Positions 5,435 through 27,837 of a stretch of 27,837 bases of DNA are shown piece after piece. Source of the DNA: a virus; the IMG/VR virus record IMGVR_UViG_3300017788_000134, positions 1-27,837 of that record. The stretch is one strand, 5' to 3'. Under the pieces are notes generated by a model. It was not told where the DNA came from. It was given only the letters and a program-made list of their open reading frames with translations, and ran no database searches. Both the position numbers and the translations under genes were made by a program. How positions within the stretch are numbered: the stretch's first letter is position 1; each line of letters starts with the position of its first letter.

Positions 5435-8400
5435 TGGCATATGAGGATCTACTAAAAGATACTTCCGCTTCTTTTGAAGACGGTAATTATTTTGTAGTTA
5501 CAGTCCCAGACCTAACACCAGGAACTATATATCCTCTTGAGTTTAGATGGAAATATAAAGACGGAACATTTTCTGAGTGGGGTTGCGTAAAAACAATAGT
5601 AGCTCCCTTGGCGTCCACCCCAGCAAGACCAGGATTTTCTCAAGGAGATCTTTCTTATTTTCAAGGAATACTAACTGTAACTTGGTCTGGACAAGATTTT
5701 AATAATTCAAGTTATGGAGCAACATTTGATAGAGTAGATGTTTATGTTGCAAGCGATGCAAACCCTGCTGTGTTTACAGTTCGTGGATCAATTAGAGTTC
5801 CTGGCGGAAAACTAGACATTCCAGTAGAGCCTGGAACATACCATGTCAAGCTTAAAACAATTTTTAAACCAGACAACCAATCTATATTTTCAACAAATAC
5901 TTTTTCTATAACATGTAAAGCAGATGCTCCTGCGGGCCCAACAGCAATTTCTGCTTCTTGGTCTGGCACAGACTTTAATGTTTCTTTTTCACACGATTCT
6001 TCGGCAACATCAAATAAATATTTTAGCTATTATAGAATATCTTTAACTGCAGGAAGCACAACTAGAACTTTTAATCTTACTCCAGTATCTGGACTATCGC
6101 AATTGTTTGCTTTAAGTTTGGCCAAAAATAGAGCAGCATTTGGAGTTCCGCAAACTTCTTTTTCTGGTTCAGTTTCTTCTGTAGACACATACGGAAACTC
6201 TAGTCTTCCTGTGTCTTTTGGATCGACTACTTATGTAAACTCATTAGCGGCACCAATAATATCTGCAACCGAAATACAGCAAGGATATAGCATATCTTAT
6301 ACCACACCGACCTCTGCTACTTATGATCATATTGAAATTGAAGAAGTTGAATCTAACGCTGGAACTGCACCTTCTACTGGATATTCTGTTATATTTTCTG
6401 GCGTAGCAAATCCAGCCCCAATTATTCGACCAAACCAAAATAAAAGATGGGTCAGGGCAAGATTTGCAGACAACATAGGATCATTTAGTGCATATAGCAC
6501 TGCTATTGCAGCTACCCCACTATCCCCAGTAACAGTAGACAATGTTCCTCCCGCAGCACCTCCTTCTGGAACAGTAACTGCTGGAGTTGATAATTCTGCT
6601 GGTGCCACTGTTGGTTTTAACGCTTACTTAAATATATCTTGGACCGCTGTAGCAGATTCAACTTTGCGTGGGTACAGAATTAGGTTTAGAGAAAATGGAA
6701 CATCTGGTCCTTATTCATATGTAGATTCTCCTGGAACTGGAACTACATTTAGACTTAACGGATTGTCTATTGGAACAACATATGAAGTTGCAATAGCATC
6801 ATATGATGAGTATAACAACACATCATCAGCGTATACATCAATAGGAACTGCAACGGCAACTGGAACTCCATTTATAGGAACGAATGTAACAACCGTAGGA
6901 TATTTCGGGGCATCCGCTACAGGAGATACTGGTACATTTAAATTTGGTTATGGTGTTCAAGATAGTGGCGGAACTAAAAGAGGTTTAGTTTTTAATCCAA
7001 ACAACTACTGGTACATAGACTCGGCACAATCAGCTTTATTTAAATTGGGTGGAGACACAGATAATTACATTTCTTGGGATGGCGCCACGTTTATTGTACA
7101 AGGAGATCTTCGTGCAAAGAAAGGAAACTTTTCTGGCAATGTTGAAATTCAACTTGGAGGATCTTTATATTCTGGAGCCTTAACCCAGGCTGGAGATTTA
7201 TCTGGTGCAGGATTTATTTTAAACAAAAATGGTTTAACTTTTAATTCTACAGGTGTAAATGGCATAACAACCATAAATGGAACAACTGGTCTTCTTACTA
7301 CTAAATCTGCAAATATAGGTGGATGGGACGTTGACTCATCTTCAATAAAAAGAACAAGCAACAGTGGAACAATTACTTTAAATTCAACTAATGCACAAAT
7401 AGTTGCATCAAGCACAAGCTATCAGGCAGGCATTGCCACCCCAGACACAAACTCTGGAAGCGATATAGTTTTTTGGGCTGGCGGAGCCAGAAATACCTCA
7501 GCTAATTTCTATGTAAGAGCAGACGGAACAGTTGTTATGGGATCTGCAACAATTACTGGATACGCAACTAGCGGTCAACTTACAACAACAAATAACAATT
7601 TAACAACAACAAATAACAATTTAACAACAACAAATAACAATTTAACAGCAACTAACGCAACGGTTGCAACTAAAGTCGGAGCCTCAGAAGTAACAAATCA
7701 TATTGGCGGGCAGAACGTAACAACAATTACTGGAAATAAAATTTCAACAGGATCCATCCAGTCTCAAACACTTAATGGTACAACAAATGGATCTACCTAT
7801 ACCAACAATGGAGTTGTTATAAATTTAAATGGAAATGGATATATTGCTTCTCCTAATTTTTATATAAATACATCTGGATCTGCGTTCTTTAGAGGTTCTG
7901 TAATAGCTCAAGGGTTTGCCTTATCCGATACCAGCGGAGATTACTGGAGCATAACTCCTGGATCAACTTCTACTGGATTTAGATTTGGAGGGGCTAATGG
8001 AATTCAATTTTCTGGCGGAAAAATAACCCTTGGTACAAATACTGAAATTTATGGAGACCTTGCTTTAAATTCGTATAACTACTGGAAACCTTCCAACAAT
8101 ACATTTAATGTTGGCGACTCAAGTAAATATATTAATTTTAATGGCAGTACGCTAACAGTCGCTGGAAAAATTATTGCTGACAGTGGGAATATTGGTGGTT
8201 GGGTAATTAATAGTAATGGATCTATTAGCAATGGAACAACGTATTTTTTTGGTTCAAGCACCGACCCAATTCAAAATGCTAATGGATGGGCAATTTTTGA
8301 TACTAGTAAAAATGCATACTTTAATACATACCTGTCTGGATCTGGAGGATATCAAGCAACTACTGGGGGCTTTATAACAACCTCTGGAAGTATTAACACT

Positions 8401-8886
8401 ATAAATGGAAACATTTCAACAGGAATTGCTGCCATAATTCTGTATTCAGACGGAACTATTTATGCAAATAGTCTTGGAGTATACTCTGGAGCATCCGCAT
8501 TAGCAATTAGACAAGTTCAACCTGCTGCAACTGGAACAAATTCGCAAACTGGATTTTTAAGAGTTAATGCTTCTTCTAGGAGATTTAAAAAAGATATAGT
8601 TTCATTAGAAGAAGGTATATATTTAGATCTAATAACAGGGCTTAATCCAGTTTCATTTGTTGATAAAAATGAAAACTTAGATGCTCCAAGAGCCATAGGA
8701 CTAATAGCCGAAGAAGTTGCTGAGATAGAAGAATTTACAGATGCCCTTGTTCCTAAAGATGAGAATGGAGATCCATTTGCAATAAATTATCCTATAATTG
8801 GAGTAGTATCTATAATGGCTTTAAAAGAAATAAAAACAGCAATTAATTCAATAAAGAGTAGGCTTGACGCTTTGGAAGGAATATAG
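5434..8886 (+). CDS. Large tail fibre with FN3-like repeats and S74 chaperone
   Basis: 1150 aa, start coupled to the previous stop (TAATG). The N-terminal 480 residues look like about five FN3-type beta sandwiches; the clearest is the last (about 370-480, with 'LNISWTAVADSTLRGYRIRF' and 'TTYEVAIASYDEYNN'). The middle is a Gly/Asn/Thr-rich fibre with two 'IGGW' motifs ('ANIGGWDVDS', 'GNIGGWVINS') and a threefold heptad LTTTNNN. The last ~104 residues match the peptidase S74 intramolecular chaperone: 'SSRRFKKDI' from residue 1047, 'GLIAEEVAEI', then a terminal coiled coil ('LKEIKTAINSIKSRLDALEG'). In this family the domain trimerises the fibre and cleaves itself off at the Ser-containing motif. 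Likely role: host recognition. Confidence 0.85.
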   Translation: MAYEDLLKDTSASFEDGNYFVVTVPDLTPGTIYPLEFRWKYKDGTFSEWGCVKTIVAPLASTPARPGFSQGDLSYFQGILTVTWSGQDFNNSSYGATFDRVDVYVASDANPAVFTVRGSIRVPGGKLDIPVEPGTYHVKLKTIFKPDNQSIFSTNTFSITCKADAPAGPTAISASWSGTDFNVSFSHDSSATSNKYFSYYRISLTAGSTTRTFNLTPVSGLSQLFALSLAKNRAAFGVPQTSFSGSVSSVDTYGNSSLPVSFGSTTYVNSLAAPIISATEIQQGYSISYTTPTSATYDHIEIEEVESNAGTAPSTGYSVIFSGVANPAPIIRPNQNKRWVRARFADNIGSFSAYSTAIAATPLSPVTVDNVPPAAPPSGTVTAGVDNSAGATVGFNAYLNISWTAVADSTLRGYRIRFRENGTSGPYSYVDSPGTGTTFRLNGLSIGTTYEVAIASYDEYNNTSSAYTSIGTATATGTPFIGTNVTTVGYFGASATGDTGTFKFGYGVQDSGGTKRGLVFNPNNYWYIDSAQSALFKLGGDTDNYISWDGATFIVQGDLRAKKGNFSGNVEIQLGGSLYSGALTQAGDLSGAGFILNKNGLTFNSTGVNGITTINGTTGLLTTKSANIGGWDVDSSSIKRTSNSGTITLNSTNAQIVASSTSYQAGIATPDTNSGSDIVFWAGGARNTSANFYVRADGTVVMGSATITGYATSGQLTTTNNNLTTTNNNLTTTNNNLTATNATVATKVGASEVTNHIGGQNVTTITGNKISTGSIQSQTLNGTTNGSTYTNNGVVINLNGNGYIASPNFYINTSGSAFFRGSVIAQGFALSDTSGDYWSITPGSTSTGFRFGGANGIQFSGGKITLGTNTEIYGDLALNSYNYWKPSNNTFNVGDSSKYINFNGSTLTVAGKIIADSGNIGGWVINSNGSISNGTTYFFGSSTDPIQNANGWAIFDTSKNAYFNTYLSGSGGYQATTGGFITTSGSINTINGNISTGIAAIILYSDGTIYANSLGVYSGASALAIRQVQPAATGTNSQTGFLRVNASSRRFKKDIVSLEEGIYLDLITGLNPVSFVDKNENLDAPRAIGLIAEEVAEIEEFTDALVPKDENGDPFAINYPIIGVVSIMALKEIKTAINSIKSRLDALEGI
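7579..7662 (+). repeat. 21-bp in-frame tandem repeat in the fibre gene
   Basis: Three near-identical 21-bp units (7579-7599, 7600-7620, 7621-7641) encode LTTTNNN, followed by a diverged fourth unit (LTATNAT, 7642-7662). The seven-residue period with Leu at one position fits a short trimeric coiled-coil or spacer. Copy number could vary by slippage, changing fibre length without breaking frame. Confidence 0.85.
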
Positions 8887-11808: not shown

Positions 11809-12118
11809 GCAAAAACTCCCTTATATTCTTATTGGCATATACCAGTATCTTTATACTGAGAGGTATGGTAAAAAGCCACGTATTAATAAATATAGAGAGA
11901 AGTGGGCTATGCAAGATGTAATTGATAGTGTAGGGTATGAACGTGCTAAAGAACTTATTGAGTATTATTTTAAGACTGGCAAGCCAGGACACCCGCTCAA
12001 TTTTTTTTACTACAACTTTGATAAGATAGATCAAATGAAGCACGATATAGATGTTGATAAGGTTAATAGAGAAAGACTCAGAGAACAAACAAAGAGAATG
12101 GTTGAAGGCGAAGAATGA
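11801..12118 (+). CDS. Helical protein, candidate helicase-associated factor
   Basis: 105 aa, GTG start overlapping the upstream stop by 8 nt; its own stop overlaps the helicase ATG by ATGA. It is all helical: 'LIGIYQYLYTERYGKKPRIN', then 'GYERAKELIEYYFKTGKPGH' and 'FFYYNFDKI', with a charged C-terminus. Its size, helical content and tight coupling to the DnaB-type gene would suit a helicase loader or inhibitor, but there is no sequence motif to prove it. Confidence 0.55.
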   Translation: MAEQKLPYILIGIYQYLYTERYGKKPRINKYREKWAMQDVIDSVGYERAKELIEYYFKTGKPGHPLNFFYYNFDKIDQMKHDIDVDKVNRERLREQTKRMVEGEE

Positions 12119-13365
12119 ATATAGAAGCAGTAGTAATCTCGGCGGTATGCAAAAATAAAGATATAAGTACTCTGCTTGCCGACAATGTTGACGAGCTATT
12201 TACTTCGCATAGAGATATTTGGGAAAGCCTAAAGTCGTATTACTATAAGTTCAAAGCCGTACCAGACGTGGGTGTTCTAATGGAACGCCATAAAGATTTT
12301 GAACCAGCAGAGATTAAAGCCGAAACTGGATACTACCTAGATAGACTAAAAAATGATTTTATATCAAATAAGATTAAGGCTATCATGTTGCGTAGTGGGT
12401 CTTCGCTAAAAGAAAATGCCCCATCTAGAGTATTGGCACAAATGCAAAGTGATTTAGCCAACCTTTCTAGATATACAAACAATGTACGAGACTTAGATGT
12501 TATTGATGTTGAATCCGCAGTAAGGCATTTTGAAGCGGTTAAGGATAGGTCTGCAATTATGGGCGGAAGTCCAGGCATCCTTACAGGCTTTGATGCTATC
12601 GATAAAGCATATCCTACAGGTATGGCACCAGGACATTTAATTGTTGCTATTGGTTGGCCAGGAAAAGGTAAGACATGGTTCACATCATATCTTGCATGCA
12701 AAGCATGGGAGCAAGGCTTTAAGCCAATGATTGTGTCTTTAGAAATGTCACCAGAAAATATGCGTGACCGTATATACACAATGCTTGGGTCTGGTATCTT
12801 CCGTGCCAGCGATTTGTCTAAGGGTGTTGTAGATATTGATGACTTCCGATCATGGGGTAAAAAGAGATTTGATAACAAGAATAGTTTTGTTCTTGTTGCT
12901 AATGAAGGCATGGGGGAGATTACGCCAGCCACAGTTCAAGGCAAGATTGATCAACATAAGCCAGATATAGTTATCCTTGACTACCACCAGCTTTTTAATG
13001 ATAACAAGCGAAGCCACTCTGAGGTAGAGCGTAACCGTAATATTTCTCGTGAGTTTAAATTGCTTGCTGTAACAAATAATATTCCGATTGTTGATATTAC
13101 CGCTGCAACGGCAGACGACATATCGGACCAAGATGAACCGCCAATGATGAGCCAAGTTGCTTGGTCAAAGGCTATTGAGTATGATGCGGACATGGCTATG
13201 GCTATTCACAAATATCCAAATACAAATATGATTGAAGTGGTTAGCCGAAAGAATCGTCATGGACATGATTTTGATTTCTATCTTGACTGGGATATTAATC
13301 GTGGTATCGTAAAAGAGATTTACGAGAATTTGCCAAACATGAAGAATGACTCATCGTCAAATTAA
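12115..13365 (+). CDS. dnaB: Replicative DNA helicase, DnaB family
   Basis: 416 aa. N-terminal helical domain (about 1-100), then a RecA-fold helicase domain opening with 'GILTGFDAIDKAYPTGMAPG'. Walker A is GWPGKGKT (180-187), Walker B is 'DIVILDY' (284-290), and 'SRKNRHGHDFDFYLDWD' is the typical C-terminal segment. DnaB hexamers unwind the fork 5'-3' on the lagging strand. At 416 aa it is shorter than the ~470 aa bacterial protein, as is usual in phages. It lies between a possible loader and the primase, so the primosome genes are together. No intein or frameshift is seen. Confidence 0.92.
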   Translation: MNIEAVVISAVCKNKDISTLLADNVDELFTSHRDIWESLKSYYYKFKAVPDVGVLMERHKDFEPAEIKAETGYYLDRLKNDFISNKIKAIMLRSGSSLKENAPSRVLAQMQSDLANLSRYTNNVRDLDVIDVESAVRHFEAVKDRSAIMGGSPGILTGFDAIDKAYPTGMAPGHLIVAIGWPGKGKTWFTSYLACKAWEQGFKPMIVSLEMSPENMRDRIYTMLGSGIFRASDLSKGVVDIDDFRSWGKKRFDNKNSFVLVANEGMGEITPATVQGKIDQHKPDIVILDYHQLFNDNKRSHSEVERNRNISREFKLLAVTNNIPIVDITAATADDISDQDEPPMMSQVAWSKAIEYDADMAMAIHKYPNTNMIEVVSRKNRHGHDFDFYLDWDINRGIVKEIYENLPNMKNDSSSN

Positions 13366-13645
13366 AAGATTTCAAATTAATGTAGAGTTCTTGGATGACT
13401 CAGACATCATAAGAATAAAGCATCAGTATGAAAGCCTGTTGACTCACCAAATGAGGGACAAGGGTTATGTGAGAGTACTTGACATAGACCCTGCTTTTTC
13501 GGTAGAATTCACGGGTGAGACATGGAAGTTCTTAATGACTCTTCATGGTATATATGTGGGAAAGAAGAAGGCATGGCAATTAGAGGGCATAACACAAGGG
13601 AAGCAAGTTCCACGAAATATGCGCCAGACCATATCAAGTCTGTAA
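13346..13645 (+). CDS. Unknown 99-aa protein between helicase and primase
   Basis: ATG 13346 overlaps the helicase end by 20 nt, and the 3' end overlaps the primase start by about 73 nt in another frame. Sequence: 'MTHRQIKRFQINVEFLDDSD', then 'YVRVLDIDPAFSVEFTGETW' and 'FLMTLHGIYVGKKKAWQLEG', alternating strands and short helices. Not recognised. Its placement inside the helicase-primase overlap suggests a primosome accessory protein. Confidence 0.55.
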   Translation: MTHRQIKRFQINVEFLDDSDIIRIKHQYESLLTHQMRDKGYVRVLDIDPAFSVEFTGETWKFLMTLHGIYVGKKKAWQLEGITQGKQVPRNMRQTISSL

Positions 13646-14571
13646 TAAGATCAACTGGCATTAATGTTGCTGGCGAAACAAATTCGGAGATAGCTTTCTA
13701 TTGCCCATTTCATAATAATACACATAGTCCTAGTTGTAGTATAAGCAAAGAAACTGGTGCATGGCTATGCTTCAATCCAGCATGCGGGGAATCTGGAACT
13801 ATTGTAGACTTAATCAAAAAAGTTTTACATAAGAATGACTTTGAAGCAATAAGGATAGTTGCTTCTAAAGAAAATGAGATACTAGACAACTTTGATCAAG
13901 CTTTGGCGGAAGCATTAGAAGACAAGCCAGACTTTGAAGAGTTCTCTCAAGAAACACTAGACAACCTGTATTCAGAATTAGCAAACTCAAAAGAAGCTTT
14001 AGATTACTTTAAGTCTAGGGGTATTAACGAGGAGGCAGTTCATCATTTTAAATTAGGATATTCCAATAAACAAAGCATGGTAATTGTCCCAGTGCATAGC
14101 CCAGACGGAATTCCAGTGGGACTAGTTGGAAGATCTATTACAGATAAAAGATTTAAGAATAGCACAAACCTACCACGCAGTAAGACTATGTTTAATATAC
14201 ACAGGGCTAAGCGTGTTGGAGACCATGCAATAATTGTAGAGTCATCATTTGATGCTATCCGTGTGCATCAGGCTGGATTCCCAAATGTCGTTGCAACTTT
14301 AGGCGGTCATATATCTCCAGTCAATATTGCTTTATTAAATAGATATTTCAACAAGATAACAATTATGACGGATTCGGACGTGGCAGGTAGAGATTTAGGT
14401 CTTCATATTGCTAATAAACTTCGTAATAAAAACATCTTGTGGGCTTCGCATGAATATGGTAAGATATATCCACACAACGCAAAAGATGCAGGAGATATGA
14501 CCGACCAAGAGATTACCGCCTGTATTAAGAATGCAGTTTCCGATATCGAATATCGATCTTGGAACCCATGA
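13573..14571 (+). CDS. DnaG-type primase (zinc finger plus TOPRIM)
   Basis: Start ATG 13573 (333 aa) is preferred because GAAGAAGG precedes it; ATG 13522 is also in frame. A CHC2-like zinc finger is at C44, H47, C66, C71 ('FYCPFHNNTHSPSCSI', 'WLCFNPACGESG'). The TOPRIM fold has the Glu of 'IIVESSFDAIR' (E223) and 'DSDVAGRD' (D267, D269), the metal-binding residues for RNA primer synthesis. It is shorter than bacterial DnaG (~600 aa) and no helicase-binding C-terminal domain is visible, so contact with the helicase must be made another way. Confidence 0.85.
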   Translation: MAIRGHNTREASSTKYAPDHIKSVIRSTGINVAGETNSEIAFYCPFHNNTHSPSCSISKETGAWLCFNPACGESGTIVDLIKKVLHKNDFEAIRIVASKENEILDNFDQALAEALEDKPDFEEFSQETLDNLYSELANSKEALDYFKSRGINEEAVHHFKLGYSNKQSMVIVPVHSPDGIPVGLVGRSITDKRFKNSTNLPRSKTMFNIHRAKRVGDHAIIVESSFDAIRVHQAGFPNVVATLGGHISPVNIALLNRYFNKITIMTDSDVAGRDLGLHIANKLRNKNILWASHEYGKIYPHNAKDAGDMTDQEITACIKNAVSDIEYRSWNP

Positions 14572-14603
14572 TATAATAAAAAAACAGACGGATCTATACC
14601 GTC
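14541..14603 (+). promoter_or_regulatory. Extended -10 promoter and leader hairpin for the SSB gene
   Basis: TGA-TATAAT (TATAAT 14572-14577) sits at the primase stop codon. Upstream is an inverted repeat CGATAT-cga-ATATCG (14541-14555); no -35 box is clear. Transcription from about 14584 would give a 5' leader with hairpin GACGG-atctata-CCGTC (14587-14603), then AGGAG (14612-14616) 8 nt before the ATG at 14625. This would boost SSB relative to the operon. Confidence 0.6.
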
Positions 14604-14624
14604 AACTACAAAGGAGAAATACAT

Positions 14625-15296
14625 ATGGGTATCGTAAAAGGTCTAAAAGACCTAAACAAAGCACTAGACAAGCCGTCATATTCTGGCGGAGACGAAAACA
14701 AAGGCCGTTGGCTAAAGATTGAAGACGGCGAAAGCGTAAAGATTAGGTTCCTACAAGAACTTGATCCAGATTCACCTAGTTATAATGACAAGCTCGGTTG
14801 CGGGTTTATCGCATTAGAGCACACTAACCCAAAAGATTATCGTCGCAAAGCTCTAGATACAATGGAGACAGAAGGACGTGATTGGGCAAATGAACAACAT
14901 CGTAAGGATCCAAAGGCTGGCTGGAAGGCTAGAGCACGTCTTTATATCAACGTCTTGGTAGATGATGGTAAGGAAGATCCATATGTAGCAATTCTTTCAC
15001 AAGGCACAAGTGGTAAAACAATTACACCTACCTTAATTGAATATGCTGGCGAAATGGGAAGCATCACAAACTTGATGTGGAGAATTAAGCGCAATGGTTC
15101 AAAAACAGACACAAGTTATACAATTATTCCATTGGCAAAGGATGAAACCCCATTTGGTTTCTCTGCTCTAGAGTTGTATGACCTAGAAAAAACCGCAGTA
15201 CGTCATGTTCCATATGCAGAGCAAGAAGCTTTCTATATGGGTGAAGGTGGTAGTGCAGAAGAGTCTTCTGCTTCATCTAGCAGCGTAGACTGGTAA
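14625..15296 (+). CDS. Probable single-stranded DNA-binding protein
   Basis: 223 aa with strong AGGAG. The N-terminus 'MGIVKGLKDLNKALDKPSYS' and the central beta-rich core ('WLKIEDGESVKIRFLQEL', 'ARLYINVLVDDGKEDPYVAI', 'GSITNLMWRIKRNGSKTDTS') fit phage gp32/gp2.5-style OB-fold proteins. The last ~20 residues are Ser/Glu/Asp-rich, ending SSVDW; an acidic tail with a terminal aromatic is the usual partner-docking tail of SSBs. It lies directly upstream of the polymerase behind its own promoter, as expected for a protein needed in bulk. There is no zinc site like that of T4 gp32. Family is inferred. Confidence 0.72.
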   Translation: MGIVKGLKDLNKALDKPSYSGGDENKGRWLKIEDGESVKIRFLQELDPDSPSYNDKLGCGFIALEHTNPKDYRRKALDTMETEGRDWANEQHRKDPKAGWKARARLYINVLVDDGKEDPYVAILSQGTSGKTITPTLIEYAGEMGSITNLMWRIKRNGSKTDTSYTIIPLAKDETPFGFSALELYDLEKTAVRHVPYAEQEAFYMGEGGSAEESSASSSSVDW

Positions 15297-15320: not shown

Positions 15321-18300
15321 ATGTCATTTACACACTTACATGTGCATTCCTACTATTCATTAATGGATGGCCTTAACTCTCCTGCCGAATTAGCGCAGGC
15401 TGCAAAGGATGCAGGACAAACAGCGTTAGCAATTACAGATCATGGTACATTGGCATCACACCGTGATATGCAGATAGCCTGTAAAGAACTTGGGATAAAG
15501 CCTATTCTTGGCGTAGAAGCATACATTTCGCCAACAGATAGATTTGATAGATCTTCTAAAACAGATAAATCGATTCAGGCCTATAACCATATTATTCTGT
15601 TGGCTAAGAATCAAACAGGATTAAATAACATTCATGCATTACAGGAATTAGCGTGGAACGAAGGCTTTTATCATAAGCCAAGAATCGATAGAGAGATATT
15701 AAAAGAATATGCGGAAGGTATTATTGTACTTAGCGGATGTCTTAATGGCATTATTAGTAAATGTATTGAACGCCAGGAGTTCTCAGAAGCAAAACTTATA
15801 CTCAAAGACTTTAAACAAACTTTTGGCGAAGACTTTTACGTTGAGGTACAATCTCACAACCCGCCAGAAATAAATAGCAAGCTTCTTGAATTAGCAGACG
15901 AATTAAAAATTAAGGCGGTGGCAACAGGAGATGCCCATTTTGCTAAAGGTGAAGACAAGGTATTAGAAGAGGCTATGCTCATTTTATCTACCAACCCTAA
16001 ATCAGACAAAGAATCAGACTTTGAGATGTCCAGACAAATTAAGAATATGATGGACAGATTTGACTACCTGTACCCCGATAGAAAAATATCGTTTAAAGAC
16101 TATAATTTATTTATTCAATCTAGGGCAGAAATTGAGGCGGACTTTAAGCAGGCTGGGGTAAATAGGACAGATATATTTGACAACACAGTAGAGATAGGCA
16201 ATAAAATTGGAGAATACGATTTCCACAGGGGTCTAGACCTTCTCCCTGTCCCCAAGACCAATGCTGACCAGAAACTCGCCCAGATGGCCTCTGAAGGCCT
16301 TAAAAGGCTATCTCTGGACAAGGACCAGGTCTACTTGGACAGGCTCCAGGAAGAATTATCTGTAATTAAAGATAAGAAATTTGCGTCCTATTTCTTGGTT
16401 GTTGCCGATATGATTAATTGGTCTAAGGAGAACGGCATTTTGGTGGGGCCAGGACGTGGTTCGGCAGCAGGCTCGTTGGTCTGCTATGCCCTAGGAATTA
16501 CAGATGTTGACCCAATTAAATATGATTTACTGTTCTTCCGTTTTATTAACCCTGAGCGTAACGACTTTCCAGACATTGATACAGATTTTGAGGATCGCCG
16601 CCGCAAAGAGGTTAAAGAATATTTGAAGAAGAAGTTCAAGCATGTTGCATCTATTTCTACATTTACTTATTTTAAAGATAAGGGTGTGGTTCGTGATGCT
16701 GCTCGTGTATTTATGATTCCTTTATCTGATGTTAACCGTGCATTAAAACAGGTAGATACGTTTGAAGACTATCTTGAGTCTCCAAATACAAAAGAGTTTA
16801 GAATGAAATATCCTGAAGTCACATGGCTTGCAGAAAGACTACGTGGAAAGATTAGAAGCGTAGGCGTACACGCTGCAGGTGTTGTTGTTGCAAAAGATGA
16901 CATCCGTAAGTATGCACCAATGGAGTCTCGTGAAGATGCACAAGATAAGGTATCTGGTCGCATTCCAGTTGTTGCGTACGATATGGATACGGTTGCCGAT
17001 ATTGGATTAATTAAGATTGATGCTCTTGGACTTAAGTCTTTATCTGTTATTAAGGATACCCTTGATGCAGTTAAAAAGCGTACTGGCAAGGAAATAGTTT
17101 TGTCAGATTTAGATTTAGAAGACCCAAGTATATATAAACTACTTAATGAAGGATATACAAAAGGAGTATTTCAGGCTGAAGCAACTCCATATACCAATCT
17201 TTTAATTAAGATGGGAGTTAGTAAGTTTGAAGATTTAGCGGCATCAAATGCTCTTGTTAGACCTGGAGCTATGAATACCGTAGGTGCTTCTTATATTAAA
17301 AGAAAGAATGGTTTAGAGGCTGTTAAGTTTGTGCACCCAATCATGCAGCCATTCACTCAAAATACGTACGGGGTTGTTATTTATCAGGAGCAGGTCATGC
17401 AGGCTTGCGTACACCTAGGAGGAATGACTTGGTCTGAAGCGGACAAGGTACGTAAAATTATCGGAAAGAAAAAAGATGCAAGAGAGTTCGATCAGTTCAG
17501 GGATAAATTCATTGAAGGAGCTTCTAAGCATATTAGCAAAAAACAAGCCGAAGATCTCTGGCACACATTTGAAGCACATGCTGGATACTCGTTCAATCGT
17601 AGTCATGCCGTTGCTTATTCTATGCTTTCTTATTATACCGCTTGGCTTAAGTATTATTATCCTTTGGAGTTTATGTTTTCCGTCCTCAAAAACGAAGGAG
17701 ATAAAGACGCCAGAACAGAATATTTAATTGAAGCAAAGCGACTTGGGCTAAAGATTAAGTTACCACATATCAATGAGTCTGATGTTTATTTTTCTCTCAA
17801 AGAAGATTCAATTAGATTCGGGTTGGCTGAGGTTAAATTTATATCTGATAGTATTGCTAATAAGATCATAGAGCGCAGGCCATTTAATGGCTATGCAGAT
17901 TTTATAGACAAGGCTTCTAAAAAAGGAAGCGGCATAAACAGCAGAGCAGTCTCAGCGTTAAATGCAATTGGCGGAGCAGCATTTGACGATAATCCTAGAC
18001 AGGGTAACGAAAAAGATAATTATTACGAGTATTTGGGAATACCTACATTTAATTTAGATTTGCCTCCAAGAATTAAAACACAGGCTAGGCCTATTGAAGA
18101 GTTTGACGACCTAGGAGCATTTCCGATGTTTGGTATGGTTAAGAATATTAAGCGGGGAACTGGATGGGCAAGAGTAGAACTTGTAGATGAAACTGGTTCA
18201 ATTGGATTATTTCACCATGAGCAGACTCAAATTGAAACTGGGCAAATGTATTTTATATTGGTAGGAGATAACCGTATTGCTAGATACATTAAAGTCGGCG

Positions 18301-18587
18301 ACATAGATCCAAATGGCTCAGACCTATTTGTAGATTATCTATATCGTAAGCAATATGATTTACAAGAAGAAGAAAGATTAGTTATTAGCTTTACGCCATA
18401 TCAAACTAAGGCAGGCAAGATGATGGCGCATATAGTATTTACAGATAAGGATAAAAACCTTACACGAGCCATTGCGTTTCCAGCGCTATATAAAATAGCA
18501 TTGGCTAAAATGCGAGAGGGCATGGTCTGTAAGCCAGGATTATCCAAATTGGATGATGGCACATTGATGATAAAGGAAATCAAATGA
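15321..18587 (+). CDS. dnaE: DNA polymerase III alpha subunit (DnaE)
   Basis: 1088 aa, GGAG 6 nt before the ATG. The N-terminal PHP domain has 'HLHVHSYYSLMDG', 'ITDHGTLA', 'LSGCLNG' and 'GDAHFAKGED', so its metal residues look mostly kept and proofreading may be intrinsic. The polymerase core has 'GPGRGSAAGSLVCYALGITD' and catalytic PDIDTDF (Asp 418 and 420), then 'GLIKIDALGLKSL'. Helix-hairpin-helix and C-terminal OB-fold regions follow ('TGWARVELVDETGSIGLFHH'). Slightly shorter than E. coli DnaE (1160 aa). No phage clamp or clamp-loader gene is in the window, so it may use host factors. About 130 bases at 16221-16350 have GC-rich, C-ending codons unlike the rest. Confidence 0.95.
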   Translation: MSFTHLHVHSYYSLMDGLNSPAELAQAAKDAGQTALAITDHGTLASHRDMQIACKELGIKPILGVEAYISPTDRFDRSSKTDKSIQAYNHIILLAKNQTGLNNIHALQELAWNEGFYHKPRIDREILKEYAEGIIVLSGCLNGIISKCIERQEFSEAKLILKDFKQTFGEDFYVEVQSHNPPEINSKLLELADELKIKAVATGDAHFAKGEDKVLEEAMLILSTNPKSDKESDFEMSRQIKNMMDRFDYLYPDRKISFKDYNLFIQSRAEIEADFKQAGVNRTDIFDNTVEIGNKIGEYDFHRGLDLLPVPKTNADQKLAQMASEGLKRLSLDKDQVYLDRLQEELSVIKDKKFASYFLVVADMINWSKENGILVGPGRGSAAGSLVCYALGITDVDPIKYDLLFFRFINPERNDFPDIDTDFEDRRRKEVKEYLKKKFKHVASISTFTYFKDKGVVRDAARVFMIPLSDVNRALKQVDTFEDYLESPNTKEFRMKYPEVTWLAERLRGKIRSVGVHAAGVVVAKDDIRKYAPMESREDAQDKVSGRIPVVAYDMDTVADIGLIKIDALGLKSLSVIKDTLDAVKKRTGKEIVLSDLDLEDPSIYKLLNEGYTKGVFQAEATPYTNLLIKMGVSKFEDLAASNALVRPGAMNTVGASYIKRKNGLEAVKFVHPIMQPFTQNTYGVVIYQEQVMQACVHLGGMTWSEADKVRKIIGKKKDAREFDQFRDKFIEGASKHISKKQAEDLWHTFEAHAGYSFNRSHAVAYSMLSYYTAWLKYYYPLEFMFSVLKNEGDKDARTEYLIEAKRLGLKIKLPHINESDVYFSLKEDSIRFGLAEVKFISDSIANKIIERRPFNGYADFIDKASKKGSGINSRAVSALNAIGGAAFDDNPRQGNEKDNYYEYLGIPTFNLDLPPRIKTQARPIEEFDDLGAFPMFGMVKNIKRGTGWARVELVDETGSIGLFHHEQTQIETGQMYFILVGDNRIARYIKVGDIDPNGSDLFVDYLYRKQYDLQEEERLVISFTPYQTKAGKMMAHIVFTDKDKNLTRAIAFPALYKIALAKMREGMVCKPGLSKLDDGTLMIKEIK

Positions 18588-19139: not shown

Positions 19140-20144
19140 ATGACAATTGTAATAGATGAAATATTAGCAAAACTAGATCCAAAAACTAGATCAAGAGTAC
19201 AGTCTGCAGTCGATGTTCAGGTAGAAAGACAAAAGACTCCAAGCATAGGGCTTAACCTTGCCTTAAAAGGTGGACTTGGATTCGGTAGACAGGTTCTCGT
19301 ATGGGGCAACAAGTCTGCTGGCAAATCTTCATTTTGTTTACAGATGATTGCAGAGGCACAAAAAAATGGAAAGACGTGTGCCTGGATCGATGCAGAAGCC
19401 TCCTATGATAAAGGGTGGGCAGAAAAGCTAGGCGTAGATTCATCTAAACTCATATACTCCTCAGCAAAAACTATTAATGATATGGTAGATGTTGCTACGC
19501 AATTGATGGAAGCAAATGTCGATATAATTGTTGTAGATTCAATTTCTGCTTTGCTACCAGCAATCTATTTTGAAAAAGATAGCACAGAACTTAAAAAGCT
19601 TGAGGACACAAAACAAATTGGTGCTGAAGCAAAAGATATGACACATGCAGTTAAAATGCTTAACTACGCAAACAAGAACACACTTCTTGTCCTTATATCG
19701 CAACAGAGAAATCAGTTTGGGTCTATGCATGCTTCGCACATTCCGACTGGTGGAATGGCTGTTAAATTCTTTTCGTCTACCGTTATTAAGCTCTGGAGTT
19801 CTGAGGCTGAAGCGAATGCGATCAAGGCTGGCGTACAAGTTGGCGATAAGGTGCTTGAGCAAAAAGTAGGAAGACCAGTAAATTGGATAATTGATTACAA
19901 TAAGTTGGGTCCTCCAAACAGGTCTGGCCTGTATGATTTTTATTATCAAGGAGAAACACTTGGTATTGATAAGGTAGGAGAAATTTTAGATGTTGCAGAA
20001 ATGTGCGGGCTCGTGGAAAAAGGTGGCGCTTGGTACACAGTGGATGGGCAAAGATTACAAGGACGGGCTAAAGCCGTGCAGTACCTTCGTGAGAATCCAA
20101 AAATAGTTAACAAACTAGAGAAAGAAATTTATGCCAAATATTAA
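19140..20144 (+). CDS. RecA/UvsX-like recombinase
   Basis: 334 aa. Walker A is GNKSAGKS (56-63); Walker B is 'DIIVVDSISAL' (128-138). 'TCAWIDAEASYDKGWAEKLG' is the classic RecA segment around the ATPase Glu, and 'VLISQQRNQFGS' fits the L1/motif 3 region. It lacks the full C-terminal domain of bacterial RecA (~350 aa) but is complete for a phage protein. It would load on ssDNA, with help from the SSB, for strand exchange, repair and recombination-dependent replication. The last 14 nt overlap the next gene. Confidence 0.9.
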   Translation: MTIVIDEILAKLDPKTRSRVQSAVDVQVERQKTPSIGLNLALKGGLGFGRQVLVWGNKSAGKSSFCLQMIAEAQKNGKTCAWIDAEASYDKGWAEKLGVDSSKLIYSSAKTINDMVDVATQLMEANVDIIVVDSISALLPAIYFEKDSTELKKLEDTKQIGAEAKDMTHAVKMLNYANKNTLLVLISQQRNQFGSMHASHIPTGGMAVKFFSSTVIKLWSSEAEANAIKAGVQVGDKVLEQKVGRPVNWIIDYNKLGPPNRSGLYDFYYQGETLGIDKVGEILDVAEMCGLVEKGGAWYTVDGQRLQGRAKAVQYLRENPKIVNKLEKEIYAKY

Positions 20145-22786: not shown

Positions 22787-22929
22787 AACTTTATCAAAGC
22801 AAAGATTGGTTGTATAGGAGGTATGTAGTTCAACGCAAGACTGTAACTCAAATAGCGGAAGAATGTAAGGTTTCTGCTATGACAATACAGAGATATCTTG
22901 AGCAATTTGAACTTATAAAAAAACGATGA
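22783..22929 (+). CDS. HTH miniprotein (48 aa)
   Basis: ATGA-overlaps both neighbours. 48 aa: 'MKLYQSKDWLYRRYVVQRKT' then 'VTQIAEECKVSAMTIQRYLE', a textbook helix-turn-helix (residues ~20-40) of the homeodomain-like type that also opens many phage HNH nucleases. No nuclease domain follows, so it is either a stand-alone regulator or the remnant DNA-binding end of a homing endonuclease. Confidence 0.65.
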   Translation: MKLYQSKDWLYRRYVVQRKTVTQIAEECKVSAMTIQRYLEQFELIKKR

Positions 22930-23801
22930 ACCTAAATAAATTATGTTATAAAATTTTTCATATACCAGGGTATAATGACCAGGATAATGTTAGAGAAAGA
23001 CTTTTTAATGAATTAGATTCATATCTTGAAGGTAAAATTGCTAGGCTTGACACCCCTACAATACTTATAAGTAATCAAGAGCAGTATGACATTTTTTGTT
23101 TAAGCCACCATCAATTAAACCCTAAAAACAAATTTAAGTGGGGCGAGCTTGGAATATGGGCAAGCAACACATTGGCAATGAAAAACTTTTTAAATGCTGA
23201 TTATGAGTATTTGATGCTTATGGAAGACGATATTTATGTAGAAAACAAAGACAGATTTCTTGAATTACTCTCAGAGTACATGGATCAATTACCAGAAGAC
23301 TGGGAAATATTTAGTTATTTTGTGCCAGAAGATCAATATTCAAAATATTATTTAAAAAGAGAAAAAAGTTTTGCCAATGGGTTCGGCTTAGAGACATCAA
23401 TTACATACAGAGGCATAGACGAAAATATTCCAGGAGGATATTTATCCTATCCAAGAGAAGACCATAAGGGTGTAGTAAAGTCTTACCAAGATTGGTCTAT
23501 GTTATGTTATATTGTAAATAGGAAAACTGTTGAAAAAATATTAAAAGATGTTATTGAAAATGGGATATATGAACCTATTGACTGGTACGTATTTAATGTT
23601 ATATACTTAGACAATAGAATTCCTATAGAGAAATCTACGCTCCAAAAGTATGGACAAGATGGTGTCATTGTTGGAAACGGAACTATCAAAATAGACAGAT
23701 TCAGAACATATACAATAACGCCAGAAGCAGAAAAAGGTTGTAGTCTTTTTAAAACAGAATCAACTTATCAACTAAGAGAAGTTGAAAATATAATAGAATA
23801 A
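22926..23801 (+). CDS. Glycosyltransferase, GT25-like
   Basis: 291 aa, ATGA overlap. 'KWGELGIWASNTLAMKNFLN' followed by 'YEYLMLMEDDIYV' (E100, D101, D102) is the core of GT25/LPS-type sugar transferases: a conserved helix, then an EDD metal and nucleotide-sugar site. 'CYIVNRKTVEKIL' and 'EPIDWYVFNVIYLDN' fit the acceptor half. No signal peptide, so it acts in the cytoplasm. The gene is more A/T-rich in codon choice than its neighbours and looks like an added cargo gene. Possible targets are phage DNA, a virion protein or a host surface sugar; the adjacent Nmad1-like gene makes DNA a fair guess. Confidence 0.65.
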   Translation: MNLNKLCYKIFHIPGYNDQDNVRERLFNELDSYLEGKIARLDTPTILISNQEQYDIFCLSHHQLNPKNKFKWGELGIWASNTLAMKNFLNADYEYLMLMEDDIYVENKDRFLELLSEYMDQLPEDWEIFSYFVPEDQYSKYYLKREKSFANGFGLETSITYRGIDENIPGGYLSYPREDHKGVVKSYQDWSMLCYIVNRKTVEKILKDVIENGIYEPIDWYVFNVIYLDNRIPIEKSTLQKYGQDGVIVGNGTIKIDRFRTYTITPEAEKGCSLFKTESTYQLREVENIIE

Positions 23802-23808
23802 GGTGGGT

Positions 23809-24144
23809 ATGCTAGAACCAGTATTTCCAGATGTAAAAGAATTTAGATGTGATGATTTATATTTGCTTACAGTAGGAACAGAAGCAGGTAGCCAAATTTG
23901 GCATACCTGCCATGAAATTGCACACATGCTAATTAAGAAAAATATTGCCTACGGCAATTCAGCCCTTGAACCTGTGCGTATATTTTCAAAGGCGGGACCA
24001 AGAGAACAACTACATGTCCGTATTGATGATAAATTAAATAGATTAATGAAGGGTACAGATTATCCAGGCGATAACGATATCGATGATTTAATTGGATATT
24101 TAGTGCTCCTTAAAATAGCAAAGGCCAAATCTTCCGAATCTTAG
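23809..24144 (+). CDS. DUF1599 / Nmad1-like protein
   Basis: 111 aa from ATG 23809, with AGG (23801-23803) upstream; a GTG at 23803 is possible but overlaps the Shine-Dalgarno. Motifs: 'IAHMLIKKNIAYGNSALEP' (K44, N45, Y48, G49), 'VRIDDKLNRLM' (R71, D73, D74, K75) and 'DIDDLIGYLVLL'. These fit the 'Nucleotide modification associated domain 1' family, linked in published genomic work to hypermodified phage bases. The reaction is unproven. It closes the replication module; a promoter follows. Confidence 0.68.
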   Translation: MLEPVFPDVKEFRCDDLYLLTVGTEAGSQIWHTCHEIAHMLIKKNIAYGNSALEPVRIFSKAGPREQLHVRIDDKLNRLMKGTDYPGDNDIDDLIGYLVLLKIAKAKSSES

Positions 24145-24171
24145 TCAACTAAGATGGTATAATATCTACAT
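24141..24171 (+). promoter_or_regulatory. Candidate leaderless promoter of the packaging module
   Basis: Inverted repeat TTAGT-CA-ACTAA (24141-24152), then TGG-TATAAT (24158-24163), 8 nt before the ATG at 24172, with no Shine-Dalgarno sequence. It matches the site at 3422-3450 in palindrome, ATGGTATAATA box, spacing and overlap with the preceding TAG stop. Confidence 0.65.
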
Positions 24172-24720
24172 ATGGACATTGAATTAGCTGATCATTATGA
24201 TCGCATGAATAAGGTCGTTTCAGAACTTCTCAAGGGTAGCACACCAACTCAGATTGCCACAATAACGGGTTTTAAACGTGCAGAGGTTGTAGAGTATATA
24301 GACGAATGGAAACAGGTCGTTAGAAACGATTCTACGGCTCGTGAGAGGGCAAAGGAGGCCATCTCTGGTGCAGACCAACATTACGCTATGCTTATTAAAG
24401 AGGCCTGGAAGACCGTAGACGACGCTGACCAAGCGGCACAATTAAATGTAAAAGCGACGGCCCTTAAATTAATTGCAGATATTGAAGGCAAAAGAATTAA
24501 TATGTTGCAAGAGGTTGGCCTATTAGACAATCAAGAATTGGCATCACAAGTTGCGGACACAGAGAGAAAGCAAGATATCCTTGTAAAGATATTAAAAGAA
24601 GTTACAGCAACATGTCCTAAGTGTAAGTTAGAGGTGGCAAAGCGCCTTTCTCAAATTACTGGAATTGTAGAGCCAGTTGTAATCAATGAGGAGCAAAATG
24701 AAACGGTTGTTATTGAGTAA
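24172..24720 (+). CDS. Candidate terminase small subunit
   Basis: 182 aa. An N-terminal HTH ('GSTPTQIATITGFKRAEVVE', ~22-41), a long helical middle ('ADQAAQLNVKATALKLIADI'), and a CPKC pair (148-151) near the end. An HTH plus helical oligomerisation segment fits small terminase subunits that recognise the packaging site, and it lies one gene before the large terminase behind its own promoter. Sequence alone does not prove this; another DNA-binding protein is possible. Confidence 0.6.
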   Translation: MDIELADHYDRMNKVVSELLKGSTPTQIATITGFKRAEVVEYIDEWKQVVRNDSTARERAKEAISGADQHYAMLIKEAWKTVDDADQAAQLNVKATALKLIADIEGKRINMLQEVGLLDNQELASQVADTERKQDILVKILKEVTATCPKCKLEVAKRLSQITGIVEPVVINEEQNETVVIE

Positions 24721-24805
24721 ACCAGCCATATTTATATATGGATTTATAACTGGGTGGATGTGCTATATGGTTGTATTGGTTGTGGCAATGAGGGCTTTTC
24801 CGTAA
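24698..24805 (+). CDS. Membrane miniprotein between terminase genes (35 aa)
   Basis: Strong GAGGAG (24688-24693) 4 nt before ATG 24698. 35 aa: 'MKRLLLSKPAIFIYGFITGW' then 'MCYMVVLVVAMRAFP', one transmembrane span after a basic start. The stop shares a base with the terminase ATG (TAATG). The signals for translation are good, but it may mainly serve to couple the two terminase genes. Confidence 0.5.
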   Translation: MKRLLLSKPAIFIYGFITGWMCYMVVLVVAMRAFP

Positions 24806-25956
24806 TGGATCTTAACTTTAATGATCTCATTGATATTCTAGATGGAGAGGAATTTGATGAAAGACCAGTCGATTTACGAACATTTGTTACGGGACAAGAT
24901 TACCTTGCACTGCCTCCGCTTTCGGAGCACCAGTATACACTCATTGAGAAAAGCAGCCAGATCTACAAAGAGTCAACACTCATAAAATTATTTGGTGAAG
25001 AAGAAGGCCGACGTCGTTATAAACAAACATGCAATGAAGTAATTGCACAGCTTGGAAAAGGAAGCGGGAAGGACTATTGCTCTACCATATCAGTATCGTA
25101 TATAGTTTATTTATTATTATGCCTAAAAGATCCTGCTACATATTATGGCAAACCACCTGGAGACTCAATAGATATTCTTAATATTGCTATTAACGCACAG
25201 CAAGCAAACAATGTTTTCTTTAAAGGATTTAAAACACGTATAGATAGATCCCCATGGTTTGTTGGCAGATATGAACCAAAGGCATCAGAAATTAAATTTG
25301 ATAAAAGTATTACAGTCCATTCTGGCCACTCGGAGCGTGAGGCCTGGGAAGGATATAACGTAATCGCTGTTGTGCTTGATGAAATATCTGGATTCGCCAC
25401 AGAAAATACTACTGGTCATGATCAAGCTAAGACAGCAGATGCAATATATGATATGTATCGTGGATCTGTTGTATCTCGTTTCCCAGACTATGGAAAAATT
25501 ATTCTTCTTTCGTTTCCCCGATTTAAAAATGATCCAATACAAAAATTTTATGATTCTGTAATTGCAGAAAAAGAAACTGTAGTTAGAAATAAAATTATGA
25601 AAATGGACAACGACCTACCAGACGGAACAGAAGGTAATGAAATAACAGTTGAATGGGAAGAGGACCATATCCTTTCATATCTTATACCAAAAGTTTATGC
25701 GCTGAAAAGACCAACATGGGAAATAAATCCAACAAAAAAGATTGAAGATTTTAAGGTAGAGTTTTATAAGAATATGCCAGACGCCCTTGGCCGCTTTGCC
25801 TGTATGCCACCAGAAGCAGTAGATGCATTTTTCAAATCTCGTGAAAAAATAGAAAAAGCTTTTAACAATATGTCTTTGGCAGTAGATCAATTTGGAAGAC
25901 TTGAGACTTGGTTTATACCAGACCCAGATAAAGAATACTTTCTTCATGTGACTTAG
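24805..25956 (+). CDS. terL: Terminase large subunit, ATPase part (frame breaks at 3' end)
   Basis: 383 aa from ATG 24805, coupled to the membrane miniprotein's stop; ATG 24754 is open but lies inside that gene. Walker A is GKGSGKD (84-90) with Asp in place of Ser/Thr, a form seen in phage terminases. Walker B plus catalytic Glu is 'VIAVVLDEIS'. This half powers DNA translocation into the capsid. The frame ends 'EYFLHVT' then TAG, right where the nuclease domain should begin. The missing part continues in the -1 frame (see the next gene). Together the parts make about 594 residues, a normal full terminase. Confidence 0.85.
   Translation: MDLNFNDLIDILDGEEFDERPVDLRTFVTGQDYLALPPLSEHQYTLIEKSSQIYKESTLIKLFGEEEGRRRYKQTCNEVIAQLGKGSGKDYCSTISVSYIVYLLLCLKDPATYYGKPPGDSIDILNIAINAQQANNVFFKGFKTRIDRSPWFVGRYEPKASEIKFDKSITVHSGHSEREAWEGYNVIAVVLDEISGFATENTTGHDQAKTADAIYDMYRGSVVSRFPDYGKIILLSFPRFKNDPIQKFYDSVIAEKETVVRNKIMKMDNDLPDGTEGNEITVEWEEDHILSYLIPKVYALKRPTWEINPTKKIEDFKVEFYKNMPDALGRFACMPPEAVDAFFKSREKIEKAFNNMSLAVDQFGRLETWFIPDPDKEYFLHVT
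25932..25956 (+). other. -1 frame break inside the terminase gene
   Basis: In the upstream frame the sequence reads ..LHVT-stop. From 25950 in the -1 frame it reads D-L-A-Q-K-H-D-H-C-A-V-S and runs straight into the 25986 ORF. The -1 frame is open only after its TAA at 25929-25931, so any shift must occur in 25932-25953. One extra base near 25950 would restore a continuous protein. Confidence 0.8.
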
Positions 25957-25985
25957 CGCAAAAGCATGACCACTGTGCAGTTTCT

Positions 25986-26588
25986 ATGGCACATGTTCAA
26001 AAATGGGTTAATGTAAAGGTTACTGATACCTATTCTCAGCCTGCACCAATAGTAGAAATAGATGCAGTTAGATACTGGACGCCTACTGCAGATAAATCTG
26101 TTGACTTTACCGAAGTTAAAGATTATATATTAGGACTAAGATCTGCTGGATTTAATATAAGGGTGTGTACATTTGACCGATGGAATTCACACGACATGAT
26201 GCAACAATTAAAACAATACGGGATTAACACAGAAACTTTATCGGTGGCAAAGAAACATTATGACGATATGGCCATGGTAGTTTTAGAAGAAAGATTGCAT
26301 GGACCACATATTCCTCTACTAATAGACGAATTACTTCAGTTAAAGATAATGAAGGACAAGGTTGATCACCCAAGAAAAGGATCAAAAGACTTGGCTGACG
26401 CCGTTTGTGGATCTGTATATAATGCAATAAGCAGAAGCAAGTTTGACATATATGGTGAGGTAGAAATTCACACATACGACTCTTACAATAGAGATGATAA
26501 AGAAGAAGAGTTTGTCCAGAATATGATACGAGCACCTAGAATGCCACAAGAGTTAGCAGATGCATTGGATAGAATGGAAGTATTATGA
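25986..26588 (+). CDS. terL: Terminase large subunit, nuclease part
   Basis: 200 aa from the first ATG, which has no Shine-Dalgarno sequence. Protein similarity extends back to 25950 ('DLAQKHDHCAVS'), including the first catalytic Asp of the RNase H-like nuclease. Downstream motifs are intact: 'DAVRYWTP', 'VCTFDRWNSHDMM' (D64) and 'KGSKDLADAVCGSV' (D135, D138), the last being very typical of terminase nuclease domains. Started at 25986 it would lack one metal-binding Asp, so it probably works only if fused to the upstream half, or the frame break is an error or mutation. Confidence 0.8.
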   Translation: MAHVQKWVNVKVTDTYSQPAPIVEIDAVRYWTPTADKSVDFTEVKDYILGLRSAGFNIRVCTFDRWNSHDMMQQLKQYGINTETLSVAKKHYDDMAMVVLEERLHGPHIPLLIDELLQLKIMKDKVDHPRKGSKDLADAVCGSVYNAISRSKFDIYGEVEIHTYDSYNRDDKEEEFVQNMIRAPRMPQELADALDRMEVL

Positions 26589-26836
26589 GCATATACCAAG
26601 AAAAAGCTAAGGCTTGTAAATGTTGTGGAAAACATGTACCACTACCAACTGTACTAAAAGAATATAACGGTATATTCTTATGCCCTACAACGTTTGCAAA
26701 TGTGATAGAATATAAGAGAATATGGACAGCATCAGGCAAAAGGCCACCAGGAAATATAAGAAAGCACTTCTCTGATTACGTGCAGCAATTAGTAGAAGAA
26801 ACTATTGACAAAAAAGAAGACGGTACGTTACAATAA
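26585..26836 (+). CDS. Small Cys-rich protein after the terminase (83 aa)
   Basis: ATGA overlap with the terminase nuclease. 'KACKCCGKHVPLP' then 'GIFLCPTTFANVIEYKRIW' give a CxCC-x2-H...C zinc-like set. The rest is helical and basic, with an acidic tail. The spacing resembles small phage zinc proteins near terminase or HNH genes, but no HNH catalytic motif is present. Not otherwise recognised. Confidence 0.58.
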   Translation: MSIYQEKAKACKCCGKHVPLPTVLKEYNGIFLCPTTFANVIEYKRIWTASGKRPPGNIRKHFSDYVQQLVEETIDKKEDGTLQ

Positions 26837-26843
26837 ATACTTG

Positions 26844-26917
26844 GCAACAGTAGCCAAGTTGGTTAAGGCCCCGAACTCATAATTCGGATATCGTAGGTTC
26901 AAGTCCTACCTGTTGCA
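26844..26917 (+). tRNA. tRNA with anticodon CAT (Met elongator or Ile2)
   Basis: Full cloverleaf: acceptor GCAACAG (26844-26850) with CTGTTGC (26910-26916); T8, A9; D stem GCC/GGC; anticodon stem CCGAA/TTCGG around loop CTCATAA (anticodon 26878-26880); variable ATATC; T stem GTAGG/CCTAC with loop TTCAAGT; discriminator A73. No encoded CCA. It lacks the three G-C pairs and C1-A72 mismatch of initiator tRNA. Met versus lysidine-modified Ile cannot be settled by eye. It is co-oriented with the genes and sits between two of them. Confidence 0.92.
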
Positions 26918-26930
26918 CAGAAAGGTTATT

Positions 26931-27242
26931 ATGGATAATAATGACAATCAAAATCTTGACTACTATATGAGTATTGGAGCCATAGAGGTTGCTGGAATAG
27001 ATAATGACGGTGAATTTATATACGAAATAACCGAACGGGCTAGGGAGGTCGCCCCAGAACTATGGTTGGCACATGAACAGCATATTGACAGCTCTTTAGT
27101 TAGAATGTTCGAAATGGGCTTAGTAAATGTAACTTATGATGAAAATCTAGAGGCTCATTTGGAATTAAGCGAAGAGGGTAAAAAAAGGTCAAAAGAATTT
27201 GGCATAATTGAAATGGACAGAAAAAATCTGCCAAATGATTAA
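26931..27242 (+). CDS. Unknown acidic protein (103 aa)
   Basis: ATG 26931 with AAAGG about 6 nt upstream, 13 nt after the tRNA; a TTG at 26913 lies inside the tRNA and is rejected. 'NLDYYMSIGAIEVAGIDNDG', 'FIYEITERAREVAPELWLAH', 'SSLVRMFEMGLVNVTYDENL' and 'AHLELSEEGKKRSKEFG' read like two winged-helix-type units (helix, then a strand-turn-strand wing). It may be a small wHTH protein common in environmental phages, but I cannot name it. Confidence 0.6.
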   Translation: MDNNDNQNLDYYMSIGAIEVAGIDNDGEFIYEITERAREVAPELWLAHEQHIDSSLVRMFEMGLVNVTYDENLEAHLELSEEGKKRSKEFGIIEMDRKNLPND

Positions 27243-27247
27243 AGTTT

Positions 27248-27283
27248 TGCTATAATATATGTGGGCTGCCATTAGGGGCCCAC
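27248..27283 (+). promoter_or_regulatory. Extended -10 promoter with 5' hairpin upstream of hsp20
   Basis: TGC-TATAAT (27251-27256), no -35. The message would begin about 27262, at a hairpin: GTGGGC (27261-27266) with GCCCAC (27278-27283), loop of 11. A hairpin at the very 5' end usually shields mRNA from decay. AAAGGAGGA (27302-27310) follows, a near-perfect Shine-Dalgarno for the ATG at 27316. High expression is expected. Confidence 0.65.
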
Positions 27284-27315
27284 AAATTAACTTATTCGCT
27301 TAAAGGAGGAATAAA

Positions 27316-27735
27316 ATGGTAACAACATTTGCTATGGATCTCTTTAGGGATCCTTTTTTTATCGGTTTCAACCGTGAGGTAGAAAGACTCAACAATATCC
27401 ATCGTGAGGCTACGGCCCAATCATTTCCACCATACAACATCGTAAAGTTAGACGAAGACTCATTTCGTGTATCTTTGGCGGTGGCTGGATTTGATAAAAA
27501 AGATATTGAGGTCTCAGTAGATAATTCCACCCTTATCGTTAAGGGAGAAACGGCTACAGAAGAGACTGGAGAGGTGCTTCATAAAGGAATCGCTACCCGT
27601 AAATTCACACGCACATTTGCGCTTGGTGAATATATGGAAGTGATTGGAGCTGAGTTCAAGAACGGTATGCTACATATTGATGTAGATCGTATTGTTCCTG
27701 AAGAGAAAAAGCCTAAGACAATCAAAATTAAATAA
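27316..27735 (+). CDS. Small heat shock protein, Hsp20 family
   Basis: 139 aa. Alpha-crystallin domain ~38-126: 'FPPYNIVKLDEDSFRVSLAV', 'AGFDKKDIEVSVDNSTLIVK' and the C-terminal 'AEFKNGMLHIDV', then a C-terminal tail with the I-x-I anchor (IKI, 136-138). IbpA-like in length (E. coli IbpA 137 aa). Such ATP-independent chaperones hold unfolding proteins; phage copies are common in aquatic phages and are thought to help virion assembly. Own promoter and strong Shine-Dalgarno mean high expression. Confidence 0.93.
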   Translation: MVTTFAMDLFRDPFFIGFNREVERLNNIHREATAQSFPPYNIVKLDEDSFRVSLAVAGFDKKDIEVSVDNSTLIVKGETATEETGEVLHKGIATRKFTRTFALGEYMEVIGAEFKNGMLHIDVDRIVPEEKKPKTIKIK

Positions 27736-27815
27736 GGTATAATAGTAACCTGGGCAACTGCCTAGGATCCGCCTGAGCATGCGGCTAAACTGCTCATTAA
27801 AATTTAAGGAGAGTT
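27715..27815 (+). promoter_or_regulatory. Promoter and structured leader with competing hairpins
   Basis: TATAAT (27738-27743) with AAGACA 17 nt upstream (27715-27720). The leader from about 27750 can form CCTGGGC/GCCTAGG (27749-27766). It can also form one of two overlapping hairpins: CCGC/GCGG (27769-27784) or TGAGCA/TGCTCA (27774-27796). AAGGAG (27806-27811) follows, 4 nt before the ATG at 27816. The two choices exclude each other, as in a switch, but there is no proof of regulation. Confidence 0.5.
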
Positions 27816-27837
27816 ATGTTTGAATATAGAGTAAAGC
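27816..27837 (+). CDS. Start of a further phage gene (3' partial)
   Basis: Only the first seven codons (MFEYRVK) are in the window, after AAGGAG at 27806-27811 and its own promoter. Nothing can be said of function; a structural gene such as portal or capsid would fit the position after the terminase. Confidence 0.7.

Follow-up and report, generated by a model that had tools for sequence, protein, structure and literature searches.

The terminase large subunit (TerL) of an uncultivated virus record (IMGVR_UViG_3300017788_000134; its 27,837 bases, all of which were analysed, are referred to as the window) is, as deposited, encoded in two adjoining frames of the plus strand. The locus comprises the following features:

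24172 to 24720, plus strand: conserved gene upstream of TerL, matching phrog_9507 (unknown function; E 9e-58), in frame and intact in relatives
24805 to 25956, plus strand: ATPase half of TerL with a probable ATG start, GKGSGKD and LDE, ending at a spurious TAG (25954-25956)
25949 to 25950, plus strand: one-base shortfall relative to a near-identical contig and every comparable relative (L002 alignment; 157 of 157 loci without the offset)
25950 to 26588, plus strand: nuclease half of TerL, with the first catalytic Asp at 25950-25952 and matches to phrog_9 and phrog_2699 (E about 1e-8)

The ATPase frame closes with EYFLHVT followed by the TAG codon at 25954-25956, and the nuclease text DLAQKHDHCAVSM opens with the GAC at 25950, one base back in frame, and reaches 26588. 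Read from this Asp codon (25950-25952), DLAQKHDHCA flows into the listed open reading frame that extends from ATG 25986 to 26588. The first-pass annotation had described both the LHVT-stop at 25956 and the D-L-A-Q-K-H-D-H-C-A text one base out of frame that continues into the nuclease frame, and both are confirmed in the sequence. On the upstream side, the nuclease frame is closed by a TAA at 25929-25931, and 25932-25953 is therefore the sole stretch in which a -1 slip could work. In the intact TerL, ATG 25986 is an internal codon, that of Met 395. Both halves show full-length matches and abut residue to residue in relatives, and thus the frame break is more than chance. Because similarity to relatives begins only at residue 16-18 of the listed open reading frame that starts with GTG 24754, the true start of TerL is probably ATG 24805 and not this GTG. 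By position alone, the gene at 24172-24720 takes the place that a small terminase subunit often has.

By profile matches and by homology to annotated terminases, the gene is assigned to TerL. The ATPase half matches the terminase large subunit profile phrog_17415 (E 2.8e-8), and the nuclease half matches phrog_9 (E 2.3e-8) and phrog_2699, also a terminase large subunit (E about 1e-8). GKGSGKD (residues 84-90) and LDE (residues 191-193) are invariant in 26 intact homologues; following the known TerL pattern, we take them to be Walker A and Walker B, the two motifs that mark the ATPase domain of a tailed-phage TerL. The acidic residues of the RNase H-like nuclease are likewise present by sequence, the predicted model of this fold being poor: D383, D458, D529 and D532 are invariant in the TerLs of Streptomyces, Thermus, Gordonia, Vibrio and Rhizobium phages. 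Asp 383, the residue displaced by the frame change, is presumably the first catalytic acid of the nuclease, as in the family generally. Its invariance in distant TerLs fits this role and supports the earlier proposal that the break falls on the first nuclease Asp that TerL needs. A structure of the intact TerL predicted with 26 close homologues reached a mean pLDDT of 39, too low for a fold search, and sequence comparison of the nuclease half and of a TerL profile with solved structures returned no match.

Among cultured phages, those of Streptomyces, for example Faust, are closest, with TerLs about 56-63% identical to that of the window. Gene 88 of Streptomyces phage Faust (Stanwilliamsviridae, NC_070783) is 62% identical across the whole TerL and shares its motifs, but in contrast to the window it is annotated as a single intact CDS. 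The TerLs of Thermus phage phiYS40, Gordonia phage RemRem, Vibrio phage vB_VpaS_sm030 and Rhizobium phage RHph_TM39 are more distant, with identities in the range of 24-31%, and share the invariant acidic residues of the nuclease. Each of them is also a single intact CDS, different from the window, and all cultured relatives that were examined carry one terminase gene each. On the most likely reading, the virus is an uncultured tailed phage with an ordinary single-gene TerL; its cultured cousins are the Stanwilliamsviridae phages of Streptomyces.

Uncultivated relatives give the same picture. We compared 160 loci, 158 of which hold both TerL halves; because some of them overlap within one and the same contig, they represent fewer independent contigs. 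In all 157 two-half loci outside the window, ATPase and nuclease are read in one frame, with HVDLAQ at the junction, and the -1 offset is seen only in the window's own locus. None of the 157 shares the break together with proper independent starts. One of the 158 full-coverage loci, an uncultivated contig (L089, 489-2267), carries an in-frame stop elsewhere inside terL; this internal stop indicates that broken terL genes occur at some background rate in uncultivated records.

A comparison with a close relative at the nucleotide level, which had been proposed earlier, was achieved with the contig IMGVR_UViG_3300013131_003583 (L002). Its 4,058 bases align to positions 23781-27837 of the window with 99.7% identity, the same gene order, 11 substitutions and a single gap. 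This gap is one base between 25949 and 25950, by which L002 is the longer of the two, and, unlike the window, L002 encodes TerL in one uninterrupted frame of 594 codons. This extra base stands near 25950, where, according to the first-pass annotation, an added base in the reads would point to a simple error. Apart from the junction gap, the 1,813 bases from 24358 to 26170 are identical in both. The intact 22-mer across the junction matched one viral contig, L002 itself, whereas the broken 21-mer had no match in the other searchable viral contigs, from which the window's own record was possibly left out. Queries with the glycosyltransferase-like protein and the tail protein yielded no further near-identical contigs (best matches 48% and 84%, respectively). 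The single open frame expected of a tailed-phage TerL is therefore present in L002 and in the 157 comparable loci, but not in the window as deposited. Judged by these alignments, the reading frame is broken by the loss of one base, and this record alone has that loss.

The remainder of the record was compared with four long syntenic contigs. For each of the other 33 open reading frames of the window, one or more of the syntenic relatives give a match confined to one frame. Among the sense-strand genes, only TerL is matched in two adjoining frames, so that there is one frame-breaking indel in 27.8 kb. Additional two-frame matches correspond to a cross-match within the tail genes or to antisense frames, which lie over TerL or over the boundaries between genes near 14571-14625 and 24720-24805. 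Since every other frame is kept in the comparison with relatives, an assembly of poor overall quality with numerous indels is ruled out.

These other genes include one for a large tail protein (5434-8886) that carries a fibronectin III domain and, at its C-terminus, an S74 intramolecular chaperone. The phage also encodes a DNA polymerase III alpha subunit of bacterial type, which has a PHP domain (15321-18587). Replication genes beside the polymerase encode a DnaB-like helicase (12115-13365), a Toprim primase (13522-14571) and RecA (19140-20144). A glycosyltransferase-like gene (22926-23801; phrog_2835, E 2.6e-8, and a weak Glyco_transf_25 match) lacks a match in three of the four syntenic contigs, and its best viral-contig match is 48% identical; on these grounds, it appears to be an accessory gene of variable occurrence. 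Just downstream of terL lies a tRNA with a CAT anticodon (26844-26918), and in the cultured relative Faust a cluster of tRNAs occupies a similar position. An HSP20-family small heat-shock protein (27316-27735; PF00011, E 2e-20) is kept in relatives.

In the first-pass annotation, three origins of the break had been considered: an indel error, an inactivating mutation and -1 recoding. The first two stand as candidates, while recoding falls, with L002 intact and the break unshared. The deposited contig is one base short at the ATPase/nuclease junction, which shifts the nuclease by one frame and creates the TAG stop; in the real virus, translation presumably passes through the junction and yields a single TerL protein of about 594 residues. 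We infer that the missing base is probably a sequencing or assembly error and not a real mutation, because terL is otherwise unmutated and is essential. Two points speak against this reading: the missing base lies outside any homopolymer run, and a real recent mutation would also give a consensus with a single indel. Long-read platforms err most in homopolymer runs.

The alternative that survives best, although unlikely, is a real and recent loss of one base that leaves terL inactive in this genome or in part of the population, and that persists either briefly or with the help of co-infecting intact phages. It would account for a break that is present in the record and outside a homopolymer, in a contig otherwise free of frame breaks. 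However, TerL is needed for packaging, and a lytic phage with such a lesion should not dominate the consensus; furthermore, the intact form is present in the near-identical L002, and the surrounding 1.8 kb carry no other stops or substitutions that would be a sign of age. We consider it very improbable that the sampled population truly carries the deletion and that a terL-null phage persists there, packaging its DNA via the terminase of co-infecting intact relatives.

The intact L002 and the lack of any relative with the break effectively rule out both a natural split gene and recoding. That the halves are made as separate ATPase and nuclease proteins is extremely unlikely: ATG 25986 is on offer in the nuclease frame, but it is internal to the intact gene, no Shine-Dalgarno-like sequence is found in the 25 bases before it, and it follows the invariant Asp 383 by 12 codons, so that a protein initiated there would lack Asp 383 as well as Asp 389. 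In addition, the halves are fused in all 157 two-half loci outside the window and in the cultured phage genes examined. The earlier remarks that this ATG has no Shine-Dalgarno sequence and follows the key Asp, and that two separate working proteins are unlikely, are borne out. Least probable of all, with next to no chance of being correct, is a programmed or opportunistic -1 ribosomal frameshift, which could join the exactly abutting frames into a full-length product by a slip within 25932-25953, but which is effectively ruled out by the lack of a slippery site (as noted before, no in-frame heptamer there fits X XXY YYZ in the zero frame, nor does any within 25926-25956), of downstream structure (the 90 nucleotides past the stop fold no better than shuffles, at -18.1 kcal/mol versus a mean of -17.6, z -0.18) and of conservation (0 of 157 loci outside the window, and absent from the 99.7%-identical L002).

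The frame break weakens the claim of a working TerL in this record, but not its membership in the TerL family. If the deletion were real, it would represent one defective genome and no new mechanism. The finding is mainly a matter of data hygiene, and a near-identical contig from the same collection is enough to resolve it. In an uncultivated phage contig, an indel of one base breaks up an essential hallmark gene, which can lead gene callers astray or give the impression of recoding.
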